Program-made: the position numbers and the translations under genes
NCBI GenBank assembly: GCA_003054695.1
Contig: QAZA01000010.1
Span: 124,001 to 188,000, forward strand
Direction of reading: 5' to 3'
Source: Verrucomicrobia bacterium LW23
GTDB lineage: Bacteria > Verrucomicrobiota > Verrucomicrobiia > Methylacidiphilales > UBA1321
Length of the DNA stretch: 64,000 nucleotides
In this document: positions 6,572-53,840 of the stretch, one piece after another
Numbering within the stretch: position 1 is the first letter of the stretch
Layout of the letters: each line of letters begins with the position of its first letter
Notes under the pieces: model-generated
Seen by the model: only the letters and a program-made list of their open reading frames with translations
Databases searched by the model: none
Told to the model about the DNA's origin: nothing

Positions 6572-6643
6572 CACACGCGCTAGGTGATGCGCCACTGTTA
6601 TACATATAGATAATTATGATGGATTTGCGGCGCGAAAAGTGGC

Positions 6644-6991: not shown

Positions 6992-7074
6992 CGCTACTTC
7001 ATGGCCAAATAATCAGTTTCCTCCCCATTTCCGGGCTGTCTTTTACATATGGGGTGTGGCACTATGGTTACGCG

Positions 7075-8775: not shown

Positions 8776-8782
8776 TAACGCT

Positions 8783-9841: not shown

Positions 9842-9880
9842 GCGTACCGTACCGGCCCCGAAGTACACCCTGCACTCCCC

Positions 9881-10960: not shown

Positions 10961-10989
10961 GTGGGGCCGATTAACGTCTGGAATTGGTC

Positions 10990-11895: not shown

Positions 11896-11970
11896 TCCTT
11901 ACCCAGCAAAGCCGCGCAACCCCCGCGCGTCAATGGAAATCGCACCGCCACTCCTTCGCACCAGCCCCGG

Positions 11971-12348
11971 CTAAATGGGCGACATGTACGCCACAACACT
12001 TTGCGACTGAAGCACTTTCACCAGCTGCTCTGCATCCTGCCGCGGCCCCACAAAACATGGCGCCTTCCCCAACTCCTCCACCTCACTTACAATTTTGGAC
12101 GCCAGCGCGCCGGAGCACTTCAACTCCTGCGACAGCAGCCGCCGCACCTGCGTCACGCTCACCGCGGGCGAGCGCGACAAAATCACCTCATACTCCATAT
12201 CCAGCGAGGGATCCATGATGATGTGAACTCCAATGTCGGCCGACCGGCCCAACGCGCCACACACGGGCACGCCGCGCACAACCAGCCCATTACACATCAC
12301 TACATCGATTTGGCGCCGTGGCAAGCCCCGACGCGCCATCGCCATCAT
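11971..12348 (-). CDS. Small protein with L7/L12- or ClpS-like C-terminal pattern
   Basis: About 125 aa. The start is chosen at 12348 because GAGGG lies just upstream of clustered ATGs at 12348, 12345 and 12339; the longer reading from 12366 has no such signal. The N-terminal third carries a VVMCNGLVVRGVP strand. The C-terminal half alternates an EYEVILSRSP strand, a VTQVRRLLSQEL helix, a SKIVSEVEELGKAP segment and a DAEQLVKVLQSQSVVAYM helix-strand. This order resembles ribosomal protein bL12 C-terminal or ClpS folds, but the similarity is weak and the function is unknown. It follows mpl by about 40 bp and precedes the PA14-like gene on the same strand. Confidence 0.55.
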   Translation of the reverse strand: MMAMARRGLPRRQIDVVMCNGLVVRGVPVCGALGRSADIGVHIIMDPSLDMEYEVILSRSPAVSVTQVRRLLSQELKCSGALASKIVSEVEELGKAPCFVGPRQDAEQLVKVLQSQSVVAYMSPI

Positions 12349-12388
12349 TTTCCCTCTACGCCACACAGCGCAACAACGCCGCGCCTCC

Positions 12389-13819: not shown

Positions 13820-14069
13820 TCGGAATCCGCTGAAAATAAAGGCCATACCGCGCATTGCACATAAACACGCACGTTTGCCGCCAGCCACGCTATACCACCC
13901 CGGGCCACCGCTGGCGAGCGCTAGTTTAATACAAACGTAAAAAAGTAAGATCCCCTCAACACATCCATGGAGTCCCCAACCCCTTACCGCCGATATAAAC
14001 TTAAGACTCGAAAAGCAACCTCAATCTGCCAGTCTGCCTTCCACAAACAAACAACCACCACTCGCTGCC

Positions 14070-14522
14070 ATGATTCGCACCATCCGTCCTCGCACGACGT
14101 CCGCCTTCTCCCTGGCGGAGGTGCTTATTTCGCTCGCGCTCTGCACCTTCTGCCTTACCCTCCTGCTTAGCCTCATCCCCCTGGGCCTCAACCACATGCG
14201 CAAAGCTTCGGAGGACAACGCCCGCTCTGTCGCCCTTCGCCACATCTCCGCCATCGCCCGCACCACCCGCTACGATCTCCTGCCCTCCCTGGTCAACAAC
14301 CCCATGTGGTTCGACGCCGAAGGCAACATCCTTGCATCCAACGAGTTGCAACGCATTTACCGTGCCGACATCACCGTCGAAGACTCCCTCTCGCGCGACT
14401 CCACCGGCGAGCGCTCGAACCCCTCCCTGCGCCGCGTCCGCATCGCCTTCTCCCACGCCCCACCCGACCTTACCACGCCGCGCGCCATCGGCACCCACAT
14501 TCTGCTTATAGCTGACAATTAG
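14070..14522 (+). CDS. Verru_Chthon cassette protein B-like pseudopilin
   Basis: 150-aa type IV pilin-like protein. A short basic leader (MIRTIRPRTTSA) precedes a FSLAEVLISLALCTFCLTLLLSLIP hydrophobic helix. Phe at +1 and Glu at +5 of the mature protein are the residues needed for prepilin peptidase cleavage and N-methylation, although the residue before the cleavage site is Ala rather than the usual Gly. The globular part contains the pattern of about 100 residues seen in cassette B proteins of Verrucomicrobia (residues such as RHISAIARTTRYDLL and LRRVRIAFSHAP). These normally occur with partner proteins A, C and D for an exported-protein system; none is adjacent here. It is divergent from mpl and convergent with tamA. 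Confidence 0.75.
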   Translation: MIRTIRPRTTSAFSLAEVLISLALCTFCLTLLLSLIPLGLNHMRKASEDNARSVALRHISAIARTTRYDLLPSLVNNPMWFDAEGNILASNELQRIYRADITVEDSLSRDSTGERSNPSLRRVRIAFSHAPPDLTTPRAIGTHILLIADN

Positions 14523-14555
14523 GCACTTACAACGGCGCGCCGGACGACCCGGCAC

Positions 14556-16928: not shown

Positions 16929-19900
16929 CTAAAACGAATTAAATACTTGATACCACCCTTGAAATTGCCGTCAACGCCCACATCTCCCAATAGCAAAATC
17001 TGGTCATTTATCTTGAATGTCGTGCGAATCCCATAGCCCTTCGAATCGGCCGTAGGCGTCACCGAAATCCGGTTGATAAAGTCGTCATCCGAACTCCTTT
17101 TACGCGGACCAAAAATCTTGTCATACAACTTCATGAAAACAAGCCATGTTGCCTTGCCCGCAATCACATTACCGCCCGACATCAGCTCCGAGGTCGTTGA
17201 GCCGGTTGCGATAAGTGACACAATGTCTTCCTGCGGCAGTGGCGGTGTACTGAAGAAAAGCACCTTCGGATCCAGCACCGTCCCGTAAATCTGTACCGTA
17301 ATGTCATAGTCGTTCACCTTCGACCGCCCGCGAATCTCCAGCCGCGCATTAAGCCCGCCACTAAACAAAATCAACCCATTGGGAATTCGCAACTGGCTGA
17401 AGGGAAGAGCCGCTTCAATCTGCCTAAGCGTCACGCGCCCATTTACTTGCGGATTCTCGCCCTTGCCGGTTACCCGAAGGTCAATCAATACGTTACCGTC
17501 CGCACGATTGCTGATAATACGGAACGGATCCTTCGTTGTAATGGCAACATCCAGGTTCCAGTTGTTCACCGGCGGTATCTTCACCCCAATATCTGGCAAG
17601 GTACTCGCAGGCGCCTGGGGGGCAGGACGCCCCGGCAAACCGATGGGCAGAATATCAATTTCCTTCTGAAAACGGCTCTTCACCAGCGCTATACTTCCTG
17701 TCACATTCGCTTCATTTAGCGGCCCGGCGAGAGTAAGATTGGCATCGCTTCGCACAATCATGTTATCGTCGCGAGTTAACAGAAGGTCACTTGCTGTAAA
17801 CGTAAAATTCAACTTCGGGTCAACAAGATCCTCAAAGTTCGCGCCACCTGTCAGCCTGAACGGCCCGCCAGCGATGAGACCCGTACACTGCTCAATGTCC
17901 ATCTTCTTCTCATTAAAGAGGATACGACCGCGCACGTTCGTGATCAGAGGTAGCGTAATGTTGCTAAATCGAACTAGCGGAGCGTTCGCCTCCGCATGCC
18001 CCTGAAGTCGAGGCTGATTGATTGTCCCGTCCACCTTAACATCCACCGACACATTCCCTTGCGCCTCAACAATTTCCGGCACAAGCTGCTCGGCAAGTTT
18101 CAGATCCGGCAAGCGGAAGCGGGCCTCCAGTTTTATTGGCCCATTGCGGTCAACGGAGCCGTCCCTCAAAATCTGCTCCACGTCGCACGGCAACTCACCG
18201 GCGATTCGCAGCGGTGGAATGCGCGGTTGGGTACCCTCTGCAACCAGGGTCAGCTTCTTGTCCCTAAGCCGGAGGTCCATGCCGAACGCAGCGGGTTCGA
18301 TTCCACTTAAAGCCTTGGCTTTCAGGTTCTTGGCGCGAAGTGTCATGCTGGCCTCCAGGCTTTCCACCGATCCATCAACATCCAGCGTGGCCTGCACGTT
18401 GCCGCTGCCCGGGAGCGAAAGCCCTACCGAAGTTGCAAGTGTGGTAATATCAAGAGGTTCCGTGCGCACTCTCGCGGAAATCCTGTTCGGGGCGCGAAGC
18501 ATGTCGGCCGGCGTCCCCAACTTTGCAAAATCGAGCGGTGCCTCTACTTCGCCAAAACCGAGTTCTCGTTTCTGGTGACGCAACGAAATGTTGAGTACAG
18601 ATAACTTCTTCTGCTGCCATGCTAAATCTCCCGAAAGGCTCAGGTCACGCCCCGAAACACGCATGCCGGGAAAGAAAATTTTCTCCGGGTCATACGATCC
18701 TTTCAGCCGAACATCGACCCCCTTGACCTCGCCAAAGCCAATCTTTTCCAGCGATATATCGGTGCTCCCCCAGTGCGCCAGATCACCACCCTGCGGGAAC
18801 GAGCCCTTGCCTTCCACCGATACATTCGCCTTACCCGCAACTACTTGCGTAACACCAAACGCATTAAGCAGCGGTTGAAATGCCCCCAGATTGGCAATGC
18901 CTCCCTTTAGCTTTGCCTCGTAATCGTACGGGGCAACCAAATGCAACGTCGCGTTGCCTTCCACTTTTGTGGACTGGCCCGAAACGGCAAGGTTTACGCC
19001 CAACTGCCCCTCCGGCGACAACTTTCCCGTCGCGATTGTATCCGCGATGTTCACAGGCATCGCCATCCGCAGGACCACCGGAGGTAACTGAGCCTGAGTA
19101 ACTTGTGCGTTGAGAGAAAACTGGTTATCCTTAAAATCTCCCTCCACGACACATATTGCGGGCTCCAGGCCAGGACTTGAATCGGCCACGATTCTGGACA
19201 AGCGCACGCGGATGGCCCCAAGCATCTGCGAGAGGCGACCGCTTGTCACAACCGTTGCATCCAGCGTTGCATCTACAGGTACTTCCAGCTCAAAACTCCT
19301 GGCTATTTGCCTGACGTCAATTCCCTCAGCCTTGAGATTGGAGGCAATCTGGCCGTTCGGGCCGATAAGTTTTGCCGGGTCTGCAAGATGGTCGCGGTCA
19401 AAAGGCGCGCTTATGCTGCCCGATAGCAAGGTTTTGGCGACAGGAACCTTCTGTATCAATGAGATAGGAGCGATGGTCAGCAGTTTATCGCGCCAGTTTA
19501 CCGCGGCGTTAAAGTCGAAATCGCCTGAGGTTAACTGAACGATCGGGAAGACAATTTCCTCGGGCGAGTACCTTCCCTTAACCGTTATCGCTGAGACCTT
19601 TGCGGGGCCAGCGACGAGATCGGAGACGTTGAGGTTACAGGTGCCGTTATTCTTCATCGAAGGCAGGCCAACCTTTGGGTCCATCTCTCCAAGTCCTTGC
19701 CAGTCAACTGTTAAACGGCCGGCAATCCGATCGCGAACGCCCAGGGCCGAGAGAAGCGGCTCAAACACCGCCAGGTTGTCGATACCGCCCCTCGCTTCCA
19801 GGTCGTAACGAATCGGGCCAGTGACATCAATTTTGCCCTTGGCCACAAAGCGGGTCGCCTGGTTGACATCAAGCGTAACCCCTTTAATATCAACCACTCC

Positions 19901-21019
19901 CTTCTCCATGCGTAACAACATTTCGCCCCGATCCACCCGGGCGCGACCGCTCCGCACCATCATTTCGACCGTGCTCAGGCGGGCGTTCATGTCCACCACC
20001 CAGCTTTTCACATCGTTAATGAGGCCGGTAAACTCCATGTTAACTGCGGCGATTTTTCCGGTCACTGGCGTATCCGAACCGATGGATTCGCGGATGGCAT
20101 CCAGGGAGACATTCTCCACTTTGACTGTGGCCGAGAGCTTCTGATCTTCCTCTCCAGGTTCAACAGCGGCAACAAATTGCGTCGTACCGTCAAAGGTATT
20201 TCCCAGAAAGCTCAGTTTGACGCGACCTAGTTCAGCCTCGCGAGTGTCAAGCGCCAGCTTCTCGATCAAAACCCGCGGAGGCAACGCCAGTTTACTTAAT
20301 GTTAACACGCGGTCCTTCCATGCAATCCCGGCGGAAAGATCATCCCACTGGCCAACGCCTGGTAACTGAAGGAAGCCAAGGCGAAGGCTGCCTGGCACGT
20401 TGTCTTCGACGTTAAGATTGAGGTCTTTTACCACGACATCGCCCGCCTTCTGTTTACCGCGAAAGTTAACATTTGTTATCGCGATTTTGCCTGGAATCGG
20501 GATGGGAGGGAGCATCAACGGGGCGTCGGACGCCTTGGCATGGGGATCCTTAAACTCAAGATCCAGAACAACTTCCACATCCTTTGCCTCCAGGTTTGTG
20601 GCAAAGCGGGGCAAGCCGGAGAAGATCAGGCCGATGAGGCTGTACTGTACAGCGAGGTGTCTGGCCTTGATTTTTTCGACCGGACCTGGCTCACGAGGGA
20701 CAATATCTACATCATTAAAGGTAACGCCATAAACGGGGTTACCTTCCAACGTATATTTGATATCCCATTTCTGTCCTTCCGCCACCCAATTGACACCATA
20801 AGTAATAGCCATTCGCAGAAGCATGCCGTGCATAAAGAACAGCAAGACAAGCATTACACCAAACGCGCCAAGAAACCAGGGCCACAGAGCGCAGAGGCGA
20901 CGAAAGAGGCCGGGCCGCGCCTCCCCACCGCGTGAGACCACAGGCGTGCCGCGCGAAGCGCTGGCGTTGCCACCTAACAGCTTGTCGTGCTTTGGGTTAT
21001 GTGCGTTGGGATCAGGCAT
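16925..21019 (-). CDS. tamB: TamB-like translocation and assembly protein (AsmA/DUF490 family)
   Basis: 1364-aa envelope-spanning protein. A single N-terminal transmembrane helix (LWPWFLGAFGVMLVLLFFMH) near residue 45 anchors it in the inner membrane. A long periplasmic body of repeated beta-rich segments carries AsmA-type phrases such as GKIAITNVNFRGK, GKIDVTGPIRYDLEA and GRVTLRQIEAALPFSQLRI. The C-terminal 300 residues match the DUF490/TamB domain: VQIYGTVLDPKVLFFSTPP, EDIVSLIATGST, and the closing ILLLGDVGVDGNFKGGIKYLIRFR-type beta strand. Such proteins form a lipid-conducting groove between membranes. The adjacent TamA-like gene, overlapped by 4 bp, is the expected outer-membrane partner. 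It is divergent from the beta-helix protein gene. Confidence 0.87.
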   Translation of the reverse strand: MPDPNAHNPKHDKLLGGNASASRGTPVVSRGGEARPGLFRRLCALWPWFLGAFGVMLVLLFFMHGMLLRMAITYGVNWVAEGQKWDIKYTLEGNPVYGVTFNDVDIVPREPGPVEKIKARHLAVQYSLIGLIFSGLPRFATNLEAKDVEVVLDLEFKDPHAKASDAPLMLPPIPIPGKIAITNVNFRGKQKAGDVVVKDLNLNVEDNVPGSLRLGFLQLPGVGQWDDLSAGIAWKDRVLTLSKLALPPRVLIEKLALDTREAELGRVKLSFLGNTFDGTTQFVAAVEPGEEDQKLSATVKVENVSLDAIRESIGSDTPVTGKIAAVNMEFTGLINDVKSWVVDMNARLSTVEMMVRSGRARVDRGEMLLRMEKGVVDIKGVTLDVNQATRFVAKGKIDVTGPIRYDLEARGGIDNLAVFEPLLSALGVRDRIAGRLTVDWQGLGEMDPKVGLPSMKNNGTCNLNVSDLVAGPAKVSAITVKGRYSPEEIVFPIVQLTSGDFDFNAAVNWRDKLLTIAPISLIQKVPVAKTLLSGSISAPFDRDHLADPAKLIGPNGQIASNLKAEGIDVRQIARSFELEVPVDATLDATVVTSGRLSQMLGAIRVRLSRIVADSSPGLEPAICVVEGDFKDNQFSLNAQVTQAQLPPVVLRMAMPVNIADTIATGKLSPEGQLGVNLAVSGQSTKVEGNATLHLVAPYDYEAKLKGGIANLGAFQPLLNAFGVTQVVAGKANVSVEGKGSFPQGGDLAHWGSTDISLEKIGFGEVKGVDVRLKGSYDPEKIFFPGMRVSGRDLSLSGDLAWQQKKLSVLNISLRHQKRELGFGEVEAPLDFAKLGTPADMLRAPNRISARVRTEPLDITTLATSVGLSLPGSGNVQATLDVDGSVESLEASMTLRAKNLKAKALSGIEPAAFGMDLRLRDKKLTLVAEGTQPRIPPLRIAGELPCDVEQILRDGSVDRNGPIKLEARFRLPDLKLAEQLVPEIVEAQGNVSVDVKVDGTINQPRLQGHAEANAPLVRFSNITLPLITNVRGRILFNEKKMDIEQCTGLIAGGPFRLTGGANFEDLVDPKLNFTFTASDLLLTRDDNMIVRSDANLTLAGPLNEANVTGSIALVKSRFQKEIDILPIGLPGRPAPQAPASTLPDIGVKIPPVNNWNLDVAITTKDPFRIISNRADGNVLIDLRVTGKGENPQVNGRVTLRQIEAALPFSQLRIPNGLILFSGGLNARLEIRGRSKVNDYDITVQIYGTVLDPKVLFFSTPPLPQEDIVSLIATGSTTSELMSGGNVIAGKATWLVFMKLYDKIFGPRKRSSDDDFINRISVTPTADSKGYGIRTTFKINDQILLLGDVGVDGNFKGGIKYLIRFR

Positions 21020-21406
21020 TCGCGAGGGCGTGCGCGGTTGGTGCCGGGCTAAAGAGGAGACCGACTATGTTTTAGCGGATGAGAGTGTGAAAGGACAGCA
21101 TTAGATGAAGATGAGAGATGATTGAAGGGGGGACGGGCGTCTTTTTACCTAATATCTTATAATGCAAATGAATACCTTGCGAAATGCAGTACAAGATACA
21201 AATATGTGAATAGTGGTCTGATGCCGTTCGATTAGCCATGTTTACGCGAGTTTTTCTGCATTCGTGCGTGAGCTTATATTCATCTGTATTAAAAGCCATC
21301 TTTTTCTCCTTTGTTATGCGTTTTCGACTCGCCTGTTACCTTTGCAAAGGCGATTCTTGCATCGTACCGAAACACCGCCTATCTTTCCCTCACACATAAC
21401 CCGCAC
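21020..21406. other. Divergent intergenic region between tamB and beta-helix gene
   Basis: The 387-bp spacer is clearly more AT-rich than its surroundings, especially 21100-21310, as expected of a bidirectional promoter region. A 75-codon frame on the minus strand (21072-21299) has no recognisable features and no good RBS, and is treated as chance. I could not assign precise -35/-10 boxes. Confidence 0.5.
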
Positions 21407-24400
21407 ATGACGCATCCGCCCCGTGAAACGCGCTTTGTTCGCCCGCTTCGCCGGGCGCTGGCCTGTTTTGTGCTGTTCGCGGCCATTTTTGGGGGCGTCG
21501 TCCAGGCACACGCAGCGCGCGACTGGTTTGTCAAAGCGAACTCCGGTGACGATGCGGATGGGACGATACTCAGGCCCTATAAGGATATCTACTGGGCTTT
21601 AGAGCAGGCAAAAGAGGGTGATTACATCCATGTTGCCGAGGGAACTTATACGGGGCGACTGGATACCGCCAACTGGACGCTCGATACGCCGCGGCTTCGC
21701 ATTCTGGGCGGCTACAATGGCACATTTACGGAGAGAGCGCCGTGGAAGTATGTGACGCGATTCGCGTTTCAGGCGGGCTCGCGGGCGCGCAATACGGGGA
21801 CGATGCTGATTGGGGGGCGCGATCACTCCGGTTGCATAATAGATGGCATTGTGTTTGATCAACAGAACAGGAACACCTATGCCAGCGCCGATCCGCGTGC
21901 CAGCCTGGAGGTGCAACGATCGAGCCGGGACCCTATCATTTCGCTGACATCGCCGGAGGTGGAGATTCGCAACTGTTTGATTATCAACGGCTCCGGAACG
22001 GGTGTGATTTTGGCGGGGGAGGGCTCGCGGTTTGAAAACAATGTGGTGATGAACATGGCGGGTCCGCATTTGCTGGAGCTGCGAGGCAACAGCCAGGAAA
22101 AGCCGACTGTTATCTCAGGCAACAGCTTTATGTTTTGCTGGAGCGCTCAGTACGGTCGCGGTGACGACCCCGGGGCTGGGCTGAAGCTTTGGGGGGGAAC
22201 GCGGGCGGAGATTACGGGCAATCTGTTTTTGATGTGTGACGGCGCGGCGATTGAGGTGCATACAAGTGCAGACCGTGTGTCGCTAAAAGATAATCTTTTT
22301 TGCCTGAGCGGGCTGGCTCACGTGCGGTTTGCAAGTGACGGGCGCCAGGCGCTTATCGACACCGGTAATTTCAACGATATCAATGACTTAGGTTTTAAGT
22401 TGTGCGAGAATAATCGCGTCGGGGATCCGGAGTTGCTTGAAGTGGACCGGGGTTGGATGGAGTATGCGATTAATCGTGCTGCGGATGTGGTAAGCAAGGT
22501 GAAGCCTGAGGAGTGGGCGCGTTTTCGGCAGGCGCTGGGGCTTAACGCACCGACGGAAGGCAAAGGGCCGCAAGGGTTTGCGATGGCTTACGACGCATTG
22601 CAGGCGCTGAAGATGGTGCTGAAGGGGCAGGCGGCGGGCTCGAAGAGCGCGACCTACCCGGTGCAGTTTGCGGGGCCGCTGGTGAAGTCGTACTGGACGG
22701 TGCCATATTCGACGTTTCTCATTCGGGCTCAGTCGCTTAACAACAGGGACGTTGCCCTTTTCGGCATTGTGGGCCGCGAGGTGAAAGGCTTTACATTTGC
22801 TGGGGTTGCGGAGAAGGATTATCGCGCGTTTGAGCTGATTCCCTCGCCGCTGGGGCCGGTGGAGAATCCGCCGCTTGTGTTTATCCGCCGTGGGGCACCC
22901 ACGGAAGCTCTTTTGGACAAAACACTTGCGTTGCAACCGCCGCCCAGCAACGCCGCGCGGGAGTTCTATTTTAAGGGCGTGTGCAAGTGGGACGGGGGCG
23001 CCTCTGTGCCGCATAAGGGCGCGCTTGTGCTGGAGGAGCTTGTGGTGCCTGCGCAGGCCACGCCCACGGGGGGACGCGACTGGTTTGTGCGCAGCGGCAG
23101 CCAGGGCGGCGACGGCAGCCGGGAGAAACCGTTTGGCGATCCTCAGGAGGCGATTGAACTGGCGCTGCCGGGGGACGTGGTGCATGTGGCCGCGGGGGAG
23201 TACGCGCGGCCGGGCACGCGGGGCGGATGGCGGGTGGATGTGCCGTTTGTGACGTTGCGCGGTGGCTACAACTCCGAGTTTACGGAGAGGATTCCGTGGC
23301 GGTTTGCATCGCGCCTGAGCGTGGCGGCCGGGCCGTTGGCAGGGGCCATTGTTCGAGGGGAGGAAGATCATACAGGCACCATTATAGATGGCTTTGTGCT
23401 GGATGGTCGCGATATGAATGTGTACGACGGCCAGGGTAATCTTGTTCCGGGGCGATCGCCCCGCAAGGCGTTGCTTAGCCTTTCATCCGGCGGTTGCATG
23501 ATTCGTAACTGTTTGATCCTGAATGGTTCACTGGGTTCCGTGGAGATTTCGGGCGGAAGTGCGGACGCGGGGGTAATGGAGAATTGCGTGCTGCTGAACT
23601 TTAGCTGGCAGTCGGTGCAGCTGTCACCGGCGGACGACACCATGAGAACTTTTGTTCTCCGTCAATGCACGGTACTGGCAAGCTGGTACGATCGGCCGGG
23701 CGGGCCGGGCGGGACGCCGGACGGGGCGGGTGTGGCGACGCGTGGAGATGTTTCGCTGGAGCTGGACGGGAACATTATTGGCTATCACGACTCGGTGGGT
23801 GTGTATTGCAGCTCGCCGCCGGGGCGGGTTCGGCTGGTGAATAACCTGTTCTGCCGCAATCTCTTCGGCAATTATACGGATGCGCAGCGGACGTTTTTGG
23901 ACGACAATATGGCACAGGTGGCGTACGCCGGCTTTGCGTCGGCCTCCGGCAATTTCGTGGGAGATCCTCCCCTGCCGTGGGACAAAGATTGGCTGACGCT
24001 GTGGACAAGCCGGGCCCAGCGGCTGGGTCGGCGCTGGCCGGAGGATGACTGGCGTCGATTTCGAGAGGCGGCAGGGCTGAAATCCGAAGATGTGTCGGCC
24101 GCGGCGGCAAGCGGCGACCCTGTGTATGCGCGGGCGTACGACTGGCGCAAGGCCCTGCCGTTTTTTATGGCGCCCGCGGAAGGTGCGCCGGGCGGCGGGC
24201 CGGGGGCTCGCGCGGTGCCGCTGCCGGTGCATTTTCTGGGGATACCGGGCGAGGCGCTTTCGACGAAAGCGTATGCGCCGGCGGAGGTGGGCGCACTGCA
24301 GTCGGCGGCCGATACGATTGACGCGAGGAATGTGGCGCTGACGGGGGTGCTGGGCGACATGCTGCCTCAGATTCCGGCCGACCTTATTGAGGAAACGAAG

Positions 24401-25312
24401 GTGGGCGACTGGACGGGCGTAGAACTTTTTGCCACCACCTCCGCGCGCGGGGAGACGCCGATGCTTGTGGTGGTAAAGCGCGACACGCGTATGGCGCGAA
24501 GGCTGAAGGTGGCGGACCGGGCGTTGCGTTATGTGTTGCGAGGCACGGCGCGCAAGAGCTCGCGCCTGGGACGGGCCGTGCTGGTGCTGGAGACGCTGGA
24601 ACGGGAGGCGACTGCGCCCGCGACTCCCGCGCCGTCCTCTGCACCCGCGCCGGTAGCGGCACCGGCCGCGAGTGCGCCGCCAGCCCCCGCACCGGCGCCA
24701 GCGCCGGTTGCGCCTGCGACGAATGCGGCTGCACCGGCTCCGGCATCATCGCCGGCACCAGGGCCGACCTCGGCACCAGCTCCAGCACCAGCGGCGGGTG
24801 CGCCTGCGGCGGCGGTACCTGCGGCTGTTCCGGCGACAAACTCGCCAAGATCGCCGCCTCCCAGCGGAGGCTCCGCTACTCCACAGCCGACGGCTCAACC
24901 GACGCCACAACCGGCGGCAGGAGAAGGACGTGGGCAGACATCCGCATCGCCTGCAACGGCGCCGCCCGCGCCTAAGGCAACAAACGCGGCACCCGAGGCA
25001 AAGCCGTCTGCGGCGAAGACGCCGCCAGCTGCGCAGACGGGAGGCGCGCCCTCCGTGGCAGCACCGGAGACGCCGGGCAATGCTCCTGCTCCTCCTCCTG
25101 CTGCACCCGCTCCAGCACCCGCTCCTGCACCACCGGCGCCGTCGGCCACAAATGCACCTCCCCAGGCGAGCTCGGCGCCTGCTCCCGCGCCACCGACGTT
25201 GCGACCGCAGGAAAGCGCGCCCGCGCCTCGGCAAGTGTCACCGGCACCCGAGGCTGCGCCAGGAAGCGCGCCGTCGGAGCCGGTTCTGGTGAATCCTGGG
25301 GCAACGGGGTAA
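21407..25312 (+). CDS. Giant secreted protein with two tandem beta-helix (DUF1565-like) modules and Pro/Ala-rich tail
   Basis: About 1300 aa from the ATG at 21407. A signal peptide (RRALACFVLFAAIFGGVVQAHA) leads directly into the first module, which opens RDWFVKANSGDDADGTILRP, a DUF1565-type start, and continues with AKEGDYIHVAEGTYTG and parallel beta-helix repeats such as IRNCLIINGSGTGVIL. A second module opens RDWFVRSGSQGGDGS near residue 560 and repeats the same order (PGDVVHVAAGEYARPG, LRGGYNSEFTERIPW, IRNCLILNGSLGSVEI). Each module ends in a beta-rich region with an Arg-Asp-Val-Ala-Leu-centred motif. The last 235 residues are an Ala/Pro low-complexity tail. It is probably exposed on the surface or released, perhaps binding polysaccharide. 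No catalytic residues could be assigned. Confidence 0.8.
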   Translation: MTHPPRETRFVRPLRRALACFVLFAAIFGGVVQAHAARDWFVKANSGDDADGTILRPYKDIYWALEQAKEGDYIHVAEGTYTGRLDTANWTLDTPRLRILGGYNGTFTERAPWKYVTRFAFQAGSRARNTGTMLIGGRDHSGCIIDGIVFDQQNRNTYASADPRASLEVQRSSRDPIISLTSPEVEIRNCLIINGSGTGVILAGEGSRFENNVVMNMAGPHLLELRGNSQEKPTVISGNSFMFCWSAQYGRGDDPGAGLKLWGGTRAEITGNLFLMCDGAAIEVHTSADRVSLKDNLFCLSGLAHVRFASDGRQALIDTGNFNDINDLGFKLCENNRVGDPELLEVDRGWMEYAINRAADVVSKVKPEEWARFRQALGLNAPTEGKGPQGFAMAYDALQALKMVLKGQAAGSKSATYPVQFAGPLVKSYWTVPYSTFLIRAQSLNNRDVALFGIVGREVKGFTFAGVAEKDYRAFELIPSPLGPVENPPLVFIRRGAPTEALLDKTLALQPPPSNAAREFYFKGVCKWDGGASVPHKGALVLEELVVPAQATPTGGRDWFVRSGSQGGDGSREKPFGDPQEAIELALPGDVVHVAAGEYARPGTRGGWRVDVPFVTLRGGYNSEFTERIPWRFASRLSVAAGPLAGAIVRGEEDHTGTIIDGFVLDGRDMNVYDGQGNLVPGRSPRKALLSLSSGGCMIRNCLILNGSLGSVEISGGSADAGVMENCVLLNFSWQSVQLSPADDTMRTFVLRQCTVLASWYDRPGGPGGTPDGAGVATRGDVSLELDGNIIGYHDSVGVYCSSPPGRVRLVNNLFCRNLFGNYTDAQRTFLDDNMAQVAYAGFASASGNFVGDPPLPWDKDWLTLWTSRAQRLGRRWPEDDWRRFREAAGLKSEDVSAAAASGDPVYARAYDWRKALPFFMAPAEGAPGGGPGARAVPLPVHFLGIPGEALSTKAYAPAEVGALQSAADTIDARNVALTGVLGDMLPQIPADLIEETKVGDWTGVELFATTSARGETPMLVVVKRDTRMARRLKVADRALRYVLRGTARKSSRLGRAVLVLETLEREATAPATPAPSSAPAPVAAPAASAPPAPAPAPAPVAPATNAAAPAPASSPAPGPTSAPAPAPAAGAPAAAVPAAVPATNSPRSPPPSGGSATPQPTAQPTPQPAAGEGRGQTSASPATAPPAPKATNAAPEAKPSAAKTPPAAQTGGAPSVAAPETPGNAPAPPPAAPAPAPAPAPPAPSATNAPPQASSAPAPAPPTLRPQESAPAPRQVSPAPEAAPGSAPSEPVLVNPGATG

Positions 25313-25402
25313 AGCGTATTGCCGTCCTTTGCCGGCTTTTCTCGATACTGGGCAGGACTGTTGTTCCTTTTTTGGCGTAACCTATTGCGCGCCAGCGGCT
25401 TA

Positions 25403-25565
25403 GACCAATTGTCGGAATAAACCGGTAGATTGGTGGAGGCGATTTTGAGCGAGGGCGGCGTTGAGTCTTCGGTCATGCATTTTTCAAATGCACTCCCTCA
25501 GCCTCGCCTAGCCCTCATCTCAAAATCGCCTCCACCAATCTACCGGTTTATTCCGAGAATTGGTC
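25403..25565. repeat. 163-bp near-perfect palindromic element (MITE-like)
   Basis: The left arm 25403-25449 (47 bp) and right arm 25519-25565 (47 bp) are reverse complements with a single mismatch. The 69-bp centre continues the symmetry in broken form (GAGGGC, GGCG and TGAG pairings) and ends in a small perfect hairpin TGCATTT-TTC-AAATGCA (25478-25494). TTA occurs immediately outside both ends in direct orientation (25400-25402 and 25566-25568), as a 3-bp target duplication would. The right TTA is also the stop codon of the DegT aminotransferase. It lies between two convergent genes and encodes nothing, so a transposed palindrome or oversized bidirectional terminator are both possible. Confidence 0.9.
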
Positions 25566-26810
25566 TTACTCGGGCTGCACAAACTCCGCAATCGCCGCGC
25601 ATACATAAGCCACTTCCGCCTCCGTAAGCTCGCCGAAGATGGGGAGGGCCAGGGAGGTGCGGGCGGCTTCTTCGGAGACGGGGAAGTCGCCGGGGCGGTG
25701 ACCCAGGAAGGCGAAGCAGGGTTGCAGATGCAGGGGGATGGGGTAGTAAATCTCGCTTCCGATCGTGCGCGCGGTCAGCGCTTCGCGCAGGGCATCGCGG
25801 CGAGGGTGGCGGATGCAATACTGGTTGTGGACGTGGGTGCCGCGAGGATCGGGGCGGGAGAGAAGCAGGCCGCCACTGGTCGCGCCGGGCGAATTGGGCG
25901 AGACGGTCGAATTGGTCGCAAGGGGTTGCAGCGCAGCGGTATACTGCGCGGCGCGGATGGAGCGCTCGGCGTGGTACGTCTCCAGGTGGCGCAGTTTAAT
26001 GCGGAGCATGGCGGCCTGCAGGGTATCCAGGCGGCTGTTGACGCCTACCATGTGGTGGTGGTACTTGGGCCTGGATCCATGGGCGCAAAGCACGCGCAGT
26101 TTCTCGGCCAGGGCGGCGTTGCGGGTAATCAAAGCGCCGCCATCGCCAAAGCCGCCGAGGTTTTTGCTGGGGTAAAAGCTGTAAATGCCGATATCACCCA
26201 GGGTGCCGACCATGCGGCCGTGCCAGCGGGCGCCGAGAGATTGCGCGGCGTCCTCCACCACCCGCAGGTTGTGGCGGCGGGCGATGTCGAGCACGGCGTC
26301 CATATCGACGCTGTGGCCAAAGAGGTGGACGGGGAGGATGGCCCGGGTGCGCGGGGTGATTTTCGCTTCGATCTGCGAGACGTCGAGGTTAAAGGTGTCG
26401 CGGTTGATATCGACGTAGACGGGCACCAGGCCCAGGCGGGTCAGGCACGCGGTCGTGGCAAAAAAGGTGTAAGGCGTCGTGATGACCTCGTCGCCGGGCT
26501 GAAGATCCAGCGCCATAAAGGCGACGATCAGTGCGTCGGAGCCCGACGCGCAGGCGATGACGTGCGCGGGCGGCTCGTCGGGGCTGCGTCCGTCGGGGCG
26601 GGGTGCTCCTCCATCGGGCTTGCCTGCGGCATCGGCATCGCCGCCGCTGCTGCTTACGGTATTGCAGTAATCGGCCAGCTCCTTCTCAAACGCGCCTACC
26701 TCCGGCCCGTTGATAAAGCGCCCATCCTCCACCACGCGGCACGCTGCCAGTTTCAGTTCGGCTTCCAACGGTTTGTTCTGTCGATTAACGTCGAGGAGAG
26801 GAATCTTCAC
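25566..26810 (-). CDS. DegT/DnrJ/EryC1/StrS-family sugar aminotransferase
   Basis: PLP-dependent aminotransferase of 414 aa that aminates nucleotide-linked keto-sugars for surface glycan synthesis. ACASGSDALIVAFMAL (residues 87-101) is the substrate/PLP phosphate loop. VVEDAAQSLGA carries Asp187, which contacts the pyridine nitrogen. SFYPSKNLGGFGDGG has the Schiff-base Lys216. The C-terminal SEEAARTSLALPIFGELTEAEV block is typical of the family. Two low-complexity inserts (about residues 52-80 and 275-295) are not conserved. No other sugar-nucleotide gene is adjacent, so the exact sugar is unknown. The stop codon abuts the long palindrome at 25403-25565. Confidence 0.92.
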   Translation of the reverse strand: MKIPLLDVNRQNKPLEAELKLAACRVVEDGRFINGPEVGAFEKELADYCNTVSSSGGDADAAGKPDGGAPRPDGRSPDEPPAHVIACASGSDALIVAFMALDLQPGDEVITTPYTFFATTACLTRLGLVPVYVDINRDTFNLDVSQIEAKITPRTRAILPVHLFGHSVDMDAVLDIARRHNLRVVEDAAQSLGARWHGRMVGTLGDIGIYSFYPSKNLGGFGDGGALITRNAALAEKLRVLCAHGSRPKYHHHMVGVNSRLDTLQAAMLRIKLRHLETYHAERSIRAAQYTAALQPLATNSTVSPNSPGATSGGLLLSRPDPRGTHVHNQYCIRHPRRDALREALTARTIGSEIYYPIPLHLQPCFAFLGHRPGDFPVSEEAARTSLALPIFGELTEAEVAYVCAAIAEFVQPE

Positions 26811-47832: not shown

Positions 47833-50800
47833 ATGACATCTCTCATCTCGTTGCGCCGTCACTGGATCGTTGCCGCAGCTTCGGCCTGGTGCTTCCTGTG
47901 GATTGGTGGAGCGGGGCGGCTCCACGTGCTCCACGCTAATCCATCCGGCGGCTCCGTGCAGGCCGGTTCGGCGCGCATCGAGAATTCGCCAGGCCAGGTG
48001 ACGATTCGGCAGTCGAGCGACCGCTCGGTGGTGCACTGGAATGACTTCAGCATCAGCCGCGGGGAGACGACCACGTTTGTGCAGCCGGGCACACGGTCGG
48101 CCACGCTGAACCGGGTGACGGGCAGCGGCACGTCGCACATCAACGGCTCGCTCAACGCAAACGGGCGTGTGTATCTCGTTAACCCTAACGGCGTTGTGGT
48201 GGGCAAGACGGGGCGAGTGAATACGGCCGGGTTTACGGCCAGCACGCACGATGTCTCCAACGCCGAGTTTATGAAGGGTGGCGACATGAATTTCAGCGGT
48301 AACTCGCGCGCCAAAGTGGTAAACTACGGCAAGATCAAGGCGACCGACGGCGATGTGACACTGATTGCGCGGCAGGTGGAGAATCACGGCCGCCTCTCGG
48401 CCCGCGGGCGGGTGCAGCTGGCGGCGGGCACGGAGGTGCTGATCAAATCCGACGGCGCGGAGCGCGTGTTTATCAAGCCGGGCTCGCGGGGTGCGGAGGG
48501 GGAGACGGGTATCATCAACACCGGCAAAGTGCGCGCGGCGGTGGCGGAGCTGAAGGCGGCCGGCGGCAATGAGTACGCGCTGGCGATCAACAACTCGGGC
48601 ATCATTCGCGCCACGGGCTCGCGCACGGAGTCGGGGCGCGTTTACCTCAGCTCCACGGGGGGCGGCATTGTCAACAGCGGCAAGATCCGCGCGACCAACC
48701 GCAATGGGTCAGGCGGCGAGATCCGCATTGCGGGTGGCGATATCAAGCTCAAGAGCGGCTCGGTGCTCGACGCGAGTGGCAGCCGCAAGGGCAAGGGCGG
48801 CAACGGCGGCAAGGTATATGTCGGCGGCGAATGGCAGGGCGGTGGCACGATGGCCCATGCAAAGAGTGTGACGATGGAGAAGGGCGCGGAGATTCGCGCC
48901 GACGCGACCGCGGGCGCAGGGGTGACGACCCCGGCCAACGGCGGCGAGGTGGTGCTGTGGTCCACCGACATTACGGATTTTAATGGTGCAATTACCGCGC
49001 GGGGCGTCAACGGCGGCCTGGGCGGCAAGGTGGAGACCTCCGGCTACCGGCTTAACGTGGGCATGGACGCGATGGTGCTGACCGATGGCGGCACCTGGCT
49101 GCTAGATCCGGAGAATATTGAGATTATCGGCTCCGCCGGCACGCACTCGGATGTCAACACACTGCCGGCGCTGGGCGATGTGACGATCCAGAACAGCGTG
49201 ATTTCCACCGCGCTGAATACGCAGCATGTTATTTTGCTGGCATCGCAGTCCATCACCGTATCGGCCAACGTGGCCGCCGCAACCGCAGGCACGTTTAACC
49301 TGACGCTGGACGCGCCGGAAGTCTTTCTCAACGCAGCAATTACGATGCGCGCCGGCACCAGCCTCCTGGGCGGCGCCGGTACGATGGACGTGGAAGTGGG
49401 CGCCAACGGCCGCGTGCAAAACGGCCTGGACGTGGTGGCCGCCGGGGGCACCGTAAAGCTGGCCGCCGCCACTTATACGGAAAATGTGGTGGTGCGTAAG
49501 TCGATGACAATTGAGGGGGCGGGCACTGATTTGGCCGACCCCGCCAACCGGACGACGATTGCAGGCGCCGGTACTGCCGCCGCACCCACCAGCACCGTTA
49601 TGTGGCTGAACGTCGGCTCCACCGATGTGGTAAATTTGAGTGGCTTCCAGCTTACCAATGGCCGGGCGATAAACACCGGCTTTCCCGCGCCAGTGGGCGG
49701 AAGCGGCCTGCGAATTGAAAACGGCACTGTGGTTGCAGACAACCTGCTGATCAATCGCAACCTCTCCAACCGCACTGGCGCCACGTATGTGGGCGCGGGC
49801 GTGCTGGTCGTCGCGGGTAATGTGACATTTGAGAATTCCCGGATTATCGATAACAATCTTGATCCCGTCTCCGGCCTTAAGCTTACCACGGGCACGGGTA
49901 GCGGCGGCGGTATCTACCTTAACTCCGGCACGCTCACGATCCGAGACAGTGTTGTCAGCAACAACGGTACCGCTGTTTCGGGTGGCGGTCTTTACCTGCT
50001 CAACGGCACGGTGCTAATTGAGAATTCGGACATCAGTAACAACAGCGCACAGAGTGGCACCGGCGGTGGCATCGCCTTTATTGATGGCAGTTTGCAGGTG
50101 CTGGGATCGACGGTGAACAACAACCTTGCCAACAGCATCAACAGCACGGGCGGCGGCATTTACCGCGGCAATGGCAGCCTCACCGTTGCGGATTCGACCA
50201 TTTCGGGAAATCGCGCAAACGCCGACACATCGGGTGGCTCGGGCAAGCGGCACGGCGGCGGCGGCATTTACAGCACGGGCAATGGAGCTGTTTCGCCGGC
50301 AGCGCCCAGCAAAATCATCGTTGCCCGGTCCGTCATATCCAATAATACGGCGGTTGGCACGGGTGGCGGTGTCCACATCCAGACGCCCAATGTAACGGAA
50401 ACCGGCGCCATCAAGGTGGAAATTTCTGATACAATTTTTAGCGGTAACTCGGCGCAAGCGAGCGGCGGCGGGTTCGCCTACGTGAGGACAGTCGACGTAG
50501 TGCAGATAAACAATTCGGTATTCGTTAACAATACCACGGCGGGCAACGGCGGAGGCATCAGCTTCGGCTCTGGCTCCGTTGGCGGTTCCGCAATACTGTA
50601 TCTCTCGAACACTAGCATATATGGCAACCAGGCCAACCTTGGCGGTGGCATTTACCTCACCTTCAACAATGCCGATTTGGCGAATGTGACGATTGCCAAC
50701 AATACTGCAACACTGGCGGGTGGTGGTATCCGGGTCAACTTTCCCGCCACGCTCCCTAACACTATTCCCGACCCCCTCCCTGCGTATCTTCCCAGTGGTG

Positions 50801-53247
50801 TGCGGATAATGAACAGCACCATTACGGGCAATCACGTCACCACGCCCACCGGCGCAGACGGATATAGCGGAGGGTCGGGCGGAGGTATCAGCCGGGCCCG
50901 GCACAACAGTAGCGGCAGTGCCAACACCAGTCACGCCATCAGCCTGGCCAACACCATCCTGGCCGGAAACACCGTGGCAACGGCCACTGGGGTGGAGTAC
51001 CAGGACTACTCCGGAAGCCTTACGGATTTCGGGCACAACGTCTTCGGTATCGGCTTGAACAGAACGCCTCCGATGGGTGAAGGACCTGGAGGTACCCAAC
51101 CCGGCAACCTCCCAGGTGTTATCAGAACGCCGAAAGCCAGCAGCTCCACCGGAATTACCGACCCGGGCCTCTCCACGCTGGGTTATTACGGCGGAGGCCT
51201 CGACCTGCAGGATACTACCTTGTTCCTGACCGCGGCACCTCTGCCTGGCAGTATCGCCATCGACAAAGGCAACGCCTCCCTCACGATCACCAGCACGCCC
51301 GTGCTTCCCAGCCCTCCGCTGGTCGCTCCGCTCGTTGTTCCTTCCACAGATCAGCGCGGCCTTGGTCGCGTTGGCGTGGCCGGCACGGTGGATGCTGGCG
51401 CCGTTGAGGCCCAGGGCTTTACCTACTCCGCAGCCGATGCCAATGCCACGCTGCTGCAGGCGTTTGATCCGATTGTCGTGACGGTGACACCCAACCATGC
51501 GGGGGATCCCGTGGCGGGGGGTACGTTCAGCATTGTGCTGCCGGGCAGCGGAGCCAGCGCCACGGGCACAACCTTGGCCACGATTGCGGCGGATGGCACA
51601 GCCACGTTCAACCTTACGGCAAACGGCACGGCCGGTGGACCCTACGCGGTTACCGTGGACGGCGCCACCGCGTTCAACCTCACCAACGATCGCATCGTGC
51701 TGACGGTGGCCCCTACCGGCACGTTGTCCAAGGTGTATGGCGACGCGACCCCCGACGCTCCGTTTGGATGGACAGTGACCAGCAGCAACTTTATGCTCGG
51801 CGACGACGCGGGCAACGTGTTTAACGGCGGCTCCCTGTCGCGCGTCGCCGGTGAGGTCGTCGCCTCCTATGCCATCACCAATGGCACGCTGGCCGTCACC
51901 AACTCCAACTACACGTTTGTCATCGACTCGAGCTACGATTTCGACATCACCAAACGTGCCATTACAGTAACGGCAAACGACAAGACCTCGGTGTATGGCG
52001 ACGCGATTGTGCCCCTCACCTTTACCGCCACCGGGCTGGTCGGATCGGACACGGAAAGCAACGCCTTTACGGGTGCCCTGGCCATGACGGGATCCAATGC
52101 GGGTAACTACGACATCACGCAAAACACGCTGGATGCCGCCAACTACTCCATTACGTTTGTTACCGGCAATTACGAGATTACCAGGCGCGCCGTCACCGTC
52201 ACCGCCGACGCCAAGACGTCGGTGTATGGCGACGCGATTGTCCCCCTCACCTTCACCGCCAGCGGGCTCGTCGGATCGGACACGGAAAGCAACGCCTTTA
52301 CAGGCGCCCTGGCCATGACGGAGACAAACGCCGGCTCCCACGCCATCACCCAAAACACGCTCGACGCTGCCAACTACGCCATCACGTACGTTGGCGCCAA
52401 CTACGTGATCAGCAAGCGCGCGGTGGATATCACCGCCCACGCCCAAACGTCGGTGTATGGCGATGCGATTGTGCCCCTCACCTTTACCGCCAGCGGGCTG
52501 GTTGGCACGGATACCGAAACCAACGCCTTTAACGGCGGCCTGGGAATGAGCCAGACAAATGCAGGCACCCACGCCATCCTCCAGAATACGCTGGACTCCG
52601 ACAACTACACCATCAACAGCTACACCGGGGCCAACTACACTATTACGCCCGCCATGCTGACGGTAACCGCCAACGACGCGAACATGCTGGCCGGGCAGGC
52701 GCTGCCCACCTTTAGCGGGGTTATCACCGGCTTCCGCTATACGGACAATGAGAGCGTAGTGGGCGGGCTTGCCTACTCCACGTCGGCCACCTCCGCCTCG
52801 CCGGTGGGCAGCTACGCCATTGTGCCTGGCGGCGCAAGCGCGTTGAACTACACGTTTACCTACGTTAACGGCAACCTCACCATTGCCGCGGCGCCTCCGG
52901 TTCCTCCCACGCCCGGCGGCGGTGGCCCGTCGCTTCCCCCCGGGAACCCCGGCATGCCTGGCGCCGTGGGCCAGCCGGGTGCTATGGGCGGCAGCGGCGG
53001 CGCCGGCGGAAACAGCGCCCCTGTCGGTACAGGCGGCAACGGCGCCACAACGGTTGCGTTTGGCGATATCTCCCTTATCGCTCAGGATTCCTTTAACGCC
53101 GTCCGCGGCCGCAATAACCTGGAGGAAGACGAGCTGGTGTTTGTTCCCGAGGCCCACAAGCCCACTATCTCCTACGGGAATCCCAACGGAAACGGAACCG
53201 GCACGGCACTCCTGCACGATTCCAGCTTCAACCTTACCTCCCCGTAA
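47833..53247 (+). CDS. Filamentous-hemagglutinin-type adhesin with beta-helix and MBG/YDG repeats
   Basis: 1804-aa surface protein. The signal peptide ends near GAGRLHVLHA. Residues 38-250 form the TPS/FhaB secretion domain: HWNDFSISRGETTTFVQPG, LVNPNGVVVGKTGRVNTAGF, with the NPNG signature. A large right-handed beta-helix follows (GGGIYLNSGTLTIRDSVVS, ISNNTAVGTGGGVHIQTP and many similar turns). Four MBG/YDG-type modules follow between about residues 1290 and 1605, three of them 77-residue near-identical copies encoded by 231-bp repeats. A Pro/Gly-rich collagen-like stretch and a short tail end the protein, without a C-terminal barrel. Family knowledge predicts two-partner secretion, but no TpsB transporter is adjacent. 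Confidence 0.88.
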   Translation: MTSLISLRRHWIVAAASAWCFLWIGGAGRLHVLHANPSGGSVQAGSARIENSPGQVTIRQSSDRSVVHWNDFSISRGETTTFVQPGTRSATLNRVTGSGTSHINGSLNANGRVYLVNPNGVVVGKTGRVNTAGFTASTHDVSNAEFMKGGDMNFSGNSRAKVVNYGKIKATDGDVTLIARQVENHGRLSARGRVQLAAGTEVLIKSDGAERVFIKPGSRGAEGETGIINTGKVRAAVAELKAAGGNEYALAINNSGIIRATGSRTESGRVYLSSTGGGIVNSGKIRATNRNGSGGEIRIAGGDIKLKSGSVLDASGSRKGKGGNGGKVYVGGEWQGGGTMAHAKSVTMEKGAEIRADATAGAGVTTPANGGEVVLWSTDITDFNGAITARGVNGGLGGKVETSGYRLNVGMDAMVLTDGGTWLLDPENIEIIGSAGTHSDVNTLPALGDVTIQNSVISTALNTQHVILLASQSITVSANVAAATAGTFNLTLDAPEVFLNAAITMRAGTSLLGGAGTMDVEVGANGRVQNGLDVVAAGGTVKLAAATYTENVVVRKSMTIEGAGTDLADPANRTTIAGAGTAAAPTSTVMWLNVGSTDVVNLSGFQLTNGRAINTGFPAPVGGSGLRIENGTVVADNLLINRNLSNRTGATYVGAGVLVVAGNVTFENSRIIDNNLDPVSGLKLTTGTGSGGGIYLNSGTLTIRDSVVSNNGTAVSGGGLYLLNGTVLIENSDISNNSAQSGTGGGIAFIDGSLQVLGSTVNNNLANSINSTGGGIYRGNGSLTVADSTISGNRANADTSGGSGKRHGGGGIYSTGNGAVSPAAPSKIIVARSVISNNTAVGTGGGVHIQTPNVTETGAIKVEISDTIFSGNSAQASGGGFAYVRTVDVVQINNSVFVNNTTAGNGGGISFGSGSVGGSAILYLSNTSIYGNQANLGGGIYLTFNNADLANVTIANNTATLAGGGIRVNFPATLPNTIPDPLPAYLPSGVRIMNSTITGNHVTTPTGADGYSGGSGGGISRARHNSSGSANTSHAISLANTILAGNTVATATGVEYQDYSGSLTDFGHNVFGIGLNRTPPMGEGPGGTQPGNLPGVIRTPKASSSTGITDPGLSTLGYYGGGLDLQDTTLFLTAAPLPGSIAIDKGNASLTITSTPVLPSPPLVAPLVVPSTDQRGLGRVGVAGTVDAGAVEAQGFTYSAADANATLLQAFDPIVVTVTPNHAGDPVAGGTFSIVLPGSGASATGTTLATIAADGTATFNLTANGTAGGPYAVTVDGATAFNLTNDRIVLTVAPTGTLSKVYGDATPDAPFGWTVTSSNFMLGDDAGNVFNGGSLSRVAGEVVASYAITNGTLAVTNSNYTFVIDSSYDFDITKRAITVTANDKTSVYGDAIVPLTFTATGLVGSDTESNAFTGALAMTGSNAGNYDITQNTLDAANYSITFVTGNYEITRRAVTVTADAKTSVYGDAIVPLTFTASGLVGSDTESNAFTGALAMTETNAGSHAITQNTLDAANYAITYVGANYVISKRAVDITAHAQTSVYGDAIVPLTFTASGLVGTDTETNAFNGGLGMSQTNAGTHAILQNTLDSDNYTINSYTGANYTITPAMLTVTANDANMLAGQALPTFSGVITGFRYTDNESVVGGLAYSTSATSASPVGSYAIVPGGASALNYTFTYVNGNLTIAAAPPVPPTPGGGGPSLPPGNPGMPGAVGQPGAMGGSGGAGGNSAPVGTGGNGATTVAFGDISLIAQDSFNAVRGRNNLEEDELVFVPEAHKPTISYGNPNGNGTGTALLHDSSFNLTSP
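51958..52650 (+). repeat. Three 231-bp tandem repeats encoding YDG/MBG modules
   Basis: Exact 231-bp spacing of GGTGTATGGCGA(C/T)GCGATTGT at 51990, 52221 and 52452 (77 codons each) marks three units, 51958-52188, 52189-52419 and 52420-52650, with high nucleotide identity between them. A more diverged 258-bp unit precedes them at about 51700-51957. The equal length and high identity suggest recent duplication or gene conversion, so the copy number may vary between strains. Confidence 0.85.
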
Positions 53248-53277
53248 ACGGAGCGCGGGGCGCGGAAGGCCCTGTCG

Positions 53278-53340
53278 CGGGCCGGGCCAATCTCTCTCTC
53301 CTTTTGTGTGATTTTGAGAGGAAAGAGCCCGGCCCGGTTT
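53278..53340 (+). terminator. Rho-independent terminator of the adhesin gene
   Basis: CGGGCCGGGC (53278-53287) and GCCCGGCCCG (53327-53336) are a perfect 10-bp inverted repeat. Inside lies a second TCTCTCC-type/GAGAGGA pairing, and TTTATT follows. It lies about 30 bp after the adhesin stop codon. Confidence 0.6.
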
Positions 53341-53373
53341 ATTCACGGCCTGCACTTTTCTCAAAAGATTTGC

Positions 53374-53402
53374 TTGCATGCCCCAGGCCAATCGCCTATA
53401 AC
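53374..53402 (+). promoter_or_regulatory. Promoter of tRNA-Glu
   Basis: TTGCAT (53374-53379), a 17-base spacer and TATAAC (53397-53402, five of six -10 matches). The tRNA begins 30 bases further on, which fits a short 5' leader. Confidence 0.55.
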
Positions 53403-53431
53403 AACACCTCTCGACCACGAGAAGTTTTCCA

Positions 53432-53503
53432 GACCCCATGGAGTAGTGGTTAGCTCTCCTCCCTTTCACGGAGGCTGCACGGGTTCGAATCCCGTTGGGG
53501 TCG
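53432..53503 (+). tRNA. tRNA-Glu (anticodon TTC)
   Basis: The 72-nt cloverleaf has acceptor stem GACCCCA/TGGGGTC plus discriminator G, D-arm GGAGTAGTGGTTAGC-type, anticodon stem CCTCC/GGAGG around loop CTTTCAC (anticodon TTC), and T-arm CGGGTTCGAATCCCG. The 3' CCA is not encoded. It is a stand-alone gene with its own promoter. Confidence 0.95.
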
Positions 53504-53840
53504 CTTTTCTCTTTCTCTCTCGCTCTCTCATCCAGTTTTCAGGTGCGAGGCTTATCCGGTTCGCTCAGTCTCCCAGTCTCCCAGTCTCTCGGCCCCCCCC
53601 ATTCGCTCAGCCCTTTGTGCCTTTTGCGGCCCGGCCCCATGCCGCAGACGACCTCGCACCGCGTATCGACGCGTGCCCCTCGCCGGGTCCGACGCGGGGC
53701 TTGATCTCCCTCGCCAAGCGTGAAAGGATGCGAGCCTCGCGGCGCTCCCCGCTCGACCGCGGCCGTACCCGCAGCCATACCACGCTCGCTGCCGCGGCCG
53801 GACCACGAGCTGCATCGCGCCCCCCCTGCCCCAGCTCCCT
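53504..53840. other. Gene-free pyrimidine-rich region after tRNA-Glu
   Basis: 337 bp with TCTC-rich runs directly after the tRNA and a triple GTCTCCCA-type repeat near 53570. No coding frame is supported, and no attachment-site duplicate of the tRNA 3' end was seen within the window. Confidence 0.45.

Follow-up and report, generated by a model that had tools for sequence, protein, structure and literature searches.

A shared cysteine-free C-terminal tail and an excess of unlinked TpsA-type exoproteins over TpsB transporters in Verrucomicrobia bacterium LW23

The genome of Verrucomicrobia bacterium LW23 encodes 16 proteins with a two-partner secretion (TPS) domain above the family cut-off and two TpsB transporters, with no linkage between the two sets of genes. 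Fourteen of the 16 TpsA-type exoproteins carry at their C-terminus a related module, the A1 tail, which is about 50 residues long and was found in no other genome searched. One of these proteins is encoded in the 64,000-nucleotide stretch of contig C10 analyzed here (the window). We propose that it forms a long stalk or adhesin on the cell surface, that one or two shared TpsBs secrete it in trans, and that its tail acts as a retention or recognition tag; we assign this reading a probability of about 0.55.

As summarized in Table 1, the open reading frame in question is real and encodes a TpsA-type exoprotein. The first-pass annotation had described an FhaB-type adhesin with an intact secretion domain and a C-terminus lacking a barrel. 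Both structural points are borne out, as the domain is intact and no translocator barrel family was found in the protein by a Pfam scan supplemented with modelling of the C-terminal 245 aa. The label FhaB-type stands in the sense of an FhaB/TpsA-type exoprotein without an adjacent TpsB, while adhesion would be its presumptive role. Scans of the whole protein against Pfam and NCBIfam found no toxin family of the CdiA type. Three features of the TpsA class are present (an N-terminal TPS domain, no barrel of its own, TpsB in the genome); a tpsB gene in the same operon, which is usual for the class and not universal (PMC5422565), is absent.

Table 1. Features of the window tpsA gene and its surroundings (window coordinates unless stated otherwise).
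Feature	Position	Strand	Basis or remark
TpsA-type exoprotein gene	47833-53247	+	single open frame, 1804 aa
Probable Sec signal peptide		+	N-terminal to TPS domain; read by eye
TPS secretion domain, aa 35-286	47935-48690	+	PF05860 E 8.7e-32, above cut-off; TIGR01901 E 2.1e-20
TPS domain, position in assembly	C10:171935-172690		
Probable right-handed beta-helix shaft	49270-51432	+	GGGIYLNSGTLTIRDSVVSNN-type repeats by eye; Pfam match absent here
Choice-of-anchor Q domain, aa 1130-1194	51220-51414	+	near shaft end; NF041518 E 1.8e-7
Five MBG_2 domains	51700-52881	+	PF18676: 51700-51921, 51961-52170, 52192-52401, 52426-52638, 52657-52881
Three in-frame 231-bp modules (R1-R3)	51938-52630	+	starts 51938, 52169, 52400; spacing 231, 231
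P/G-rich linker, predicted disordered	52882-53085	+	P+G content; AlphaFold2 pLDDT mostly <50
C-terminal tail module A1, Cys-free	53086-53244	+	common to 14/16 TpsA proteins of the genome
tRNA-Glu (ttc)	53432-53504	+	downstream of tpsA gene; context

The protein is predicted to pass from folded domains into a flexible linker. Proline and glycine make up 38% of the 45 residues preceding the tail, against 19% protein-wide. AlphaFold2 modelling of the C-terminal 245 aa with 11 paralogs (mean pLDDT 62.7, pTM 0.44; two of the five models at about 35) predicts an MBG domain that is largely folded (block pLDDT 65-95); the linker and tail that follow score mostly below 50, and the tail contains two short predicted strands. 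An antisense open frame of 1151 aa lies opposite the gene (window 50014-53469, minus strand); it is probably a composition effect, since 12 of the 16 paralogs have an open antisense frame across their TPS domain. The window also encodes a second large beta-helix protein (21311-25312, plus strand; 1333 aa), which is of the Beta_helix/NosD type and has no TPS match.

The 16 TPS-domain genes all lie in open frames, of 1105-3338 codons, and are dispersed through the genome apart from two that stand in tandem on contig C45. The two TpsB genes, each with ShlB and POTRA_2 domains, are located on contigs C53 and C39 (470 and 232 kb), which carry none of the 16; in a tree of TpsBs, their proteins fall on separate, unresolved branches. 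No TpsB was detected in the window when open reading frames of at least 80 codons were compared with a profile of 17 TpsBs (E 1e-6). The earlier impression that no TpsB is visible is therefore accurate for the window and for the gene's neighborhood, but not for the genome, where the search yields two rather than zero; absence of TpsB from the genome is ruled out by these two genes. The assembly is a draft of 56 contigs (6.6 Mb) at 95.4% completeness, and it may therefore lack a third TpsB that the genome contains. No gene is conserved beside all of the tpsA loci. The TPS domains of the paralogs are 49-81% identical to the window copy, a range compatible with shared transporters.

Omp85-type matches were also surveyed across the genome. 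These comprise a BamA-like protein (C11), a TamA-like protein (found twice, via contig overlap) and, weakly, the C39 TpsB; the search gave these alone, and hence no third candidate of Omp85 type. A TpsB of the Hmw1B type hidden under the Omp85 model was sought in the same search and not found. In the window, an Omp85 and POTRA open reading frame with a weak POTRA_2 match (14556-16928, minus strand) adjoins a TamB gene, and together they form a TAM-like pair (14556-21019, minus strand).

One feature of the assembly bears on gene counts. Contig C9 starts with an exact reverse copy of window 5509-25508 and of C10:1-149508 of the assembly; 20 kb compared in full and four further samples up to C9:149400 are all 100% identical. 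The doubling reflects either redundancy in the assembly or an inverted duplication of very recent date. A short inverted repeat is inferred near its edge at about 25508 (25402-25456 against 25511-25566, 94.6%). No TPS match falls inside the doubled stretch, so the TPS counts are unaffected.

The core of the A1 tail reads FNATRGRNNxDExxY...IxY...LLHxSSxDLF; the residues GRN, H and S are invariant in 11 aligned proteins, and three of the 14 tails are a shorter variant. The tandem pair on C45 lacks the tail, which is therefore not required by every TpsA. Within LW23, a tail profile matches the 14 TpsA C-termini and nothing else (next match E 2.8, a chance level). The same profile found no tail in the other 11 of 12 family genomes or in the other 386 of 387 phylum genomes (up to 17 candidates scored per genome, LW23 being the sole match), and none of 79 named TPS loci contained it (best E 1.4). 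A single-sequence search with P0001 against named genomes found no relative. Searches of 14 tail pieces of 48-56 aa returned no NCBIfam family at E up to 1 and, from Pfam, one-member matches at E 0.13 or worse; nothing significant was found among solved structures (best E 0.76). NCBIfam and Pfam include models for PEP-CTERM, T9SS and LPXTG-type sorting signals, and the tails match none of these. Prediction of the tail alone gave no fold (pLDDT 59.6, pTM 0.19), which is weak evidence either way with only 14 sequences.

Cysteine is absent from the last 120 residues of all 14 tailed proteins. None of the 16 LW23 TpsAs has a cysteine loop of the HMW1/HxuA type within its last 80 residues; such a loop occurs in one of 47 distinct relatives (a 435-codon frame) and in 94 of 791 control open reading frame ends. 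Only seven of the 14 proteins are clearly enriched in proline and glycine over the 45 residues that precede the tail (at least 0.36, against about 0.2 overall), the remaining values being 0.27-0.29 in three and 0.13-0.22 in four.

The tail could instead be a relic that the paralogs inherited and that has no specific role. Every tail does sit on homologous proteins of one genome, and their TPS domains are related to the degree given above. Against this, the invariant core residues contrast with the region that joins the last MBG domain to the tail, which varies in both length and sequence. The motif SS[YFWLH] is also enriched at the C-terminal end of relatives (25 of 47, against 52 of 791 controls and a mean of 4.9 in shuffles), a pattern that was picked after the tails had been inspected and that occurs in none of six independent plasmid TpsA ends that looked complete. 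We consider a relic unlikely, though the strongest of the competing explanations.

Kinship of the A1 tail deeper than the LW23 genome is possible on the basis of sequence comparisons. Tails of the 47 relatives, which are non-independent (about ten come from one Verrucomicrobiales group), score higher against the A1 profile than the 791 control ends (Mann-Whitney p 4e-10), and 20 exceed the control 95th percentile; 19 beat their own shuffles at p<0.05. These relatives are not a random sample of TpsAs, since most were found via motifs typical of LW23 TPS domains, and the controls are not wholly free of TpsA ends, since one scored 94 bits. A reverse profile built from Verrucomicrobiales tails was positive for the 16 LW23 proteins (p 6e-6) but gave a negative result with the remaining 37 relatives (p 0.18), among which one near-duplicate of a training row was left. 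Homology of A1 to the tails of other lineages was rejected as not significant in profile-profile comparison (P 0.0095-0.13, probability <5%), and these other tails are likewise not significantly related among themselves (P 0.23 and 0.52). The plasmid set comprised nine loci, from 40 among 170 matching records, with two that ran off the stretch and gave no entry. The six complete proteobacterial TpsAs in this set all carry a cysteine pair in the last 80 residues, as judged by eye. Overall, SS[YFWLH] was seen in one of nine plasmid entries; this hit falls among three further entries, which are a frame of 679 codons with no gene listed for it and both fragments of a split gene.

Secretion of TpsA across the outer membrane by TpsB is established for this family of systems; TpsA is exported via Sec, and its shaft folds outside the cell. 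In the reading that we favor, the TPS domain would target the chain to the pore of a TpsB, the shaft would consist of the beta-helix and MBG domains, and the flexible linker would lead to the short cysteine-free tail. The window TpsA would most likely leave the cell in trans through either or both of the two unlinked TpsBs, which can plausibly serve it. The tail would most likely hold the chain at the cell surface, or label it for recognition by a shared TpsB or a different envelope partner, and would in effect do the job of the HMW1/HxuA cysteine-loop anchor. We infer both shared TpsBs and a tail that replaces the loop because some TpsBs secrete more than one TpsA (no ratio being given) and HMW1 and HxuA are kept in the TpsB pore by a C-terminal disulphide loop (PMC5422565). 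As a guess, one TpsB might handle the 14 proteins that bear a tail and the other the C45 pair. The 16 to 2 set could also contain proteins that are unsecreted or unexpressed.

A second alternative is that the orphan TpsAs use another route (TAM, Bam or a Verru_Chthon pseudopilin machine) or stay periplasmic. The TAM-like pair in the window is in line with this idea, as are the Verru_Chthon pseudopilin-like cassettes that adjoin two of the 16 tpsA genes, both variant-tailed, at loci L023 (11323-17775) and L029 (128-6714). Cassette proteins A, B and C (TIGR02600, TIGR02598, TIGR02599) are encoded at both loci, B at L023 falling just below the cut-off; protein D (TIGR02596) is encoded at L029, with a D-like frame at L023. 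Yet all 16 proteins have an intact, conserved TPS domain, the genome has two canonical TpsBs, and no cassette lies beside any of the remaining 14 tpsA genes within the 15-20 kb inspected for each; the 64-kb window has only a weak protein-B-like frame about 33 kb away. We therefore regard another route as improbable, somewhat more so than a relic tail. The weak frame lies at 13941-14519 and matches cassette protein B at 1e-8. Cassette-like genes also occur beside a tpsA-tpsB pair of another genome (L147), and a literature search under the Verru_Chthon cassette phrase found no paper.

The 231-bp modules had been read as nearly identical copies at exact spacing, a sign of recent expansion by which strains might come to differ in surface reach. 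The spacing is indeed exact; near identity and recent expansion are rejected because R1 and R2 are 81.4% identical in nucleotides (79% in amino acids), R2 and R3 75.8% (68%) and R1 and R3 70.6% (63%), with dS of 0.59-0.90 against dN of 0.11-0.25. The modules thus differ by 19-29% in DNA, and the longest exact run common to them is 32 nt. Tandem Repeats Finder reports a 231 x 2.8 array at 51977-52615 and two further arrays in the window, at 3959 and 25103, with no short-unit tract in or near the tpsA gene; the repeats are neither near-identical nor of the slippable short-unit kind seen in phase-variable adhesins. Across the 16 paralogs, MBG_2 domains number from 0 to 22 per protein (61 in total, in 10 proteins). 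Despite the exact spacing and these differences in domain number, strain-to-strain variation through recently expanded repeats is very improbable given how far the copies have diverged. The substitution pattern argues that the modules are old duplications under purifying selection, and length differences among the paralogs represent long-term diversification rather than phase variation; the genome of the window is the sole one from its genus among the 12 family genomes.

Comparison with the family places the LW23 arrangement in context. TPS matches were found in 11 of the 12 family genomes, as were TpsB matches; TPS matches number 16 in LW23 against 0 to 7 in the others. Outside LW23, 12 of 18 TpsB matches have a TPS domain no more than 10 kb away, whereas neither of the two in LW23 does. 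Among the 11 other genomes, 19 of 31 TPS matches have no TpsB match within 10 kb (contig ends disregarded), so the excess of TpsA over TpsB is a family trend of which LW23 is the extreme case. Only the size of its excess and its wholly unlinked TpsBs stand out. Among the 79 named TPS loci, the retrieved stretch includes a TpsB in 26 cases, 25 of them with the TpsB downstream of tpsA, and none in six cases despite at least 2.5 kb on either side; 45 were too short to judge and two, without a TPS open reading frame, were excluded. In the phylum sample of 387 genomes, at least 58 have TPS matches (up to six candidates scored per genome) and 71 have TpsB matches; LW23 has 20 first-look TPS candidates, and no other genome among those listed has more than 10.

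The closest systems compared are those of Tous-C9LFEB, HJP_bin11 and Methylacidiphilales SRB-18, whose TPS domains are 49-55% identical to that of the window; the LW23 TpsBs are 45 and 50% identical to their best-scoring relatives in these genomes. Several of these relatives also have more TpsA than TpsB. While many of their TpsBs adjoin or overlap tpsA, those of LW23 are unlinked, and none of the 0-7 TPS matches per genome in relatives bears an A1 tail, against 14 of 16 in LW23. Frames of 158 codons with a partial TPS profile match (about 1e-9) occur upstream of TpsA in Tous-C9LFEB (L134, 9836-10309) and HJP_bin11 (L136, 13936-14409).

A broader and more tentative proposal is that the A1 tail represents a new cysteine-free C-terminal address and anchor signal. 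LW23 may then operate a ‘hub’ form of two-partner secretion, in which a single TpsB pore, both pores or a dedicated partner in the envelope would secrete and hold at least 14 different giant stalk proteins in one cell as an exchangeable surface coat. The strand and SS-aromatic ends of other Verrucomicrobiota TpsAs would be relatives of this signal.

Among known systems, Bordetella FhaB/FhaC (type Vb) resembles that of LW23 in its N-terminal TPS domain, its very large repetitive exoprotein and its ShlB/FhaC-type TpsB. It differs in that LW23 has 16 TpsAs to two unlinked TpsBs, plus MBG arrays; FhaB carries a C-terminal prodomain. To our knowledge, a ratio of 16 to 2 with a common tail exceeds any multi-client TpsB case. 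A genome with 16 clients, two pores and a conserved tail in 14 but not two is a natural test set for the choice of clients by TpsB and for the surface retention of TpsAs without a cysteine loop. Searches linking filamentous hemagglutinin with Methylacidiphil, or the MBG domain with two-partner secretion, found no literature. Among the papers listed on two-partner secretion in Verrucomicrobia, on orphan, unlinked or multiple TpsAs and on C-terminal anchors, no title or abstract opening describes this arrangement. Multi-client TpsBs (PMC5422565) offer a precedent for one transporter serving several exoproteins, as proposed for LW23. Haemophilus influenzae HMW1 and HxuA share with LW23 a short segment at the extreme C-terminus proposed to hold the exoprotein at the surface; in HMW1 and HxuA it is a disulphide loop (PMC5422565), whereas the LW23 tails are cysteine-free and have another conserved core. 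The unlinked 16 to 2 arrangement, together with its tail, would be a new form of two-partner secretion.
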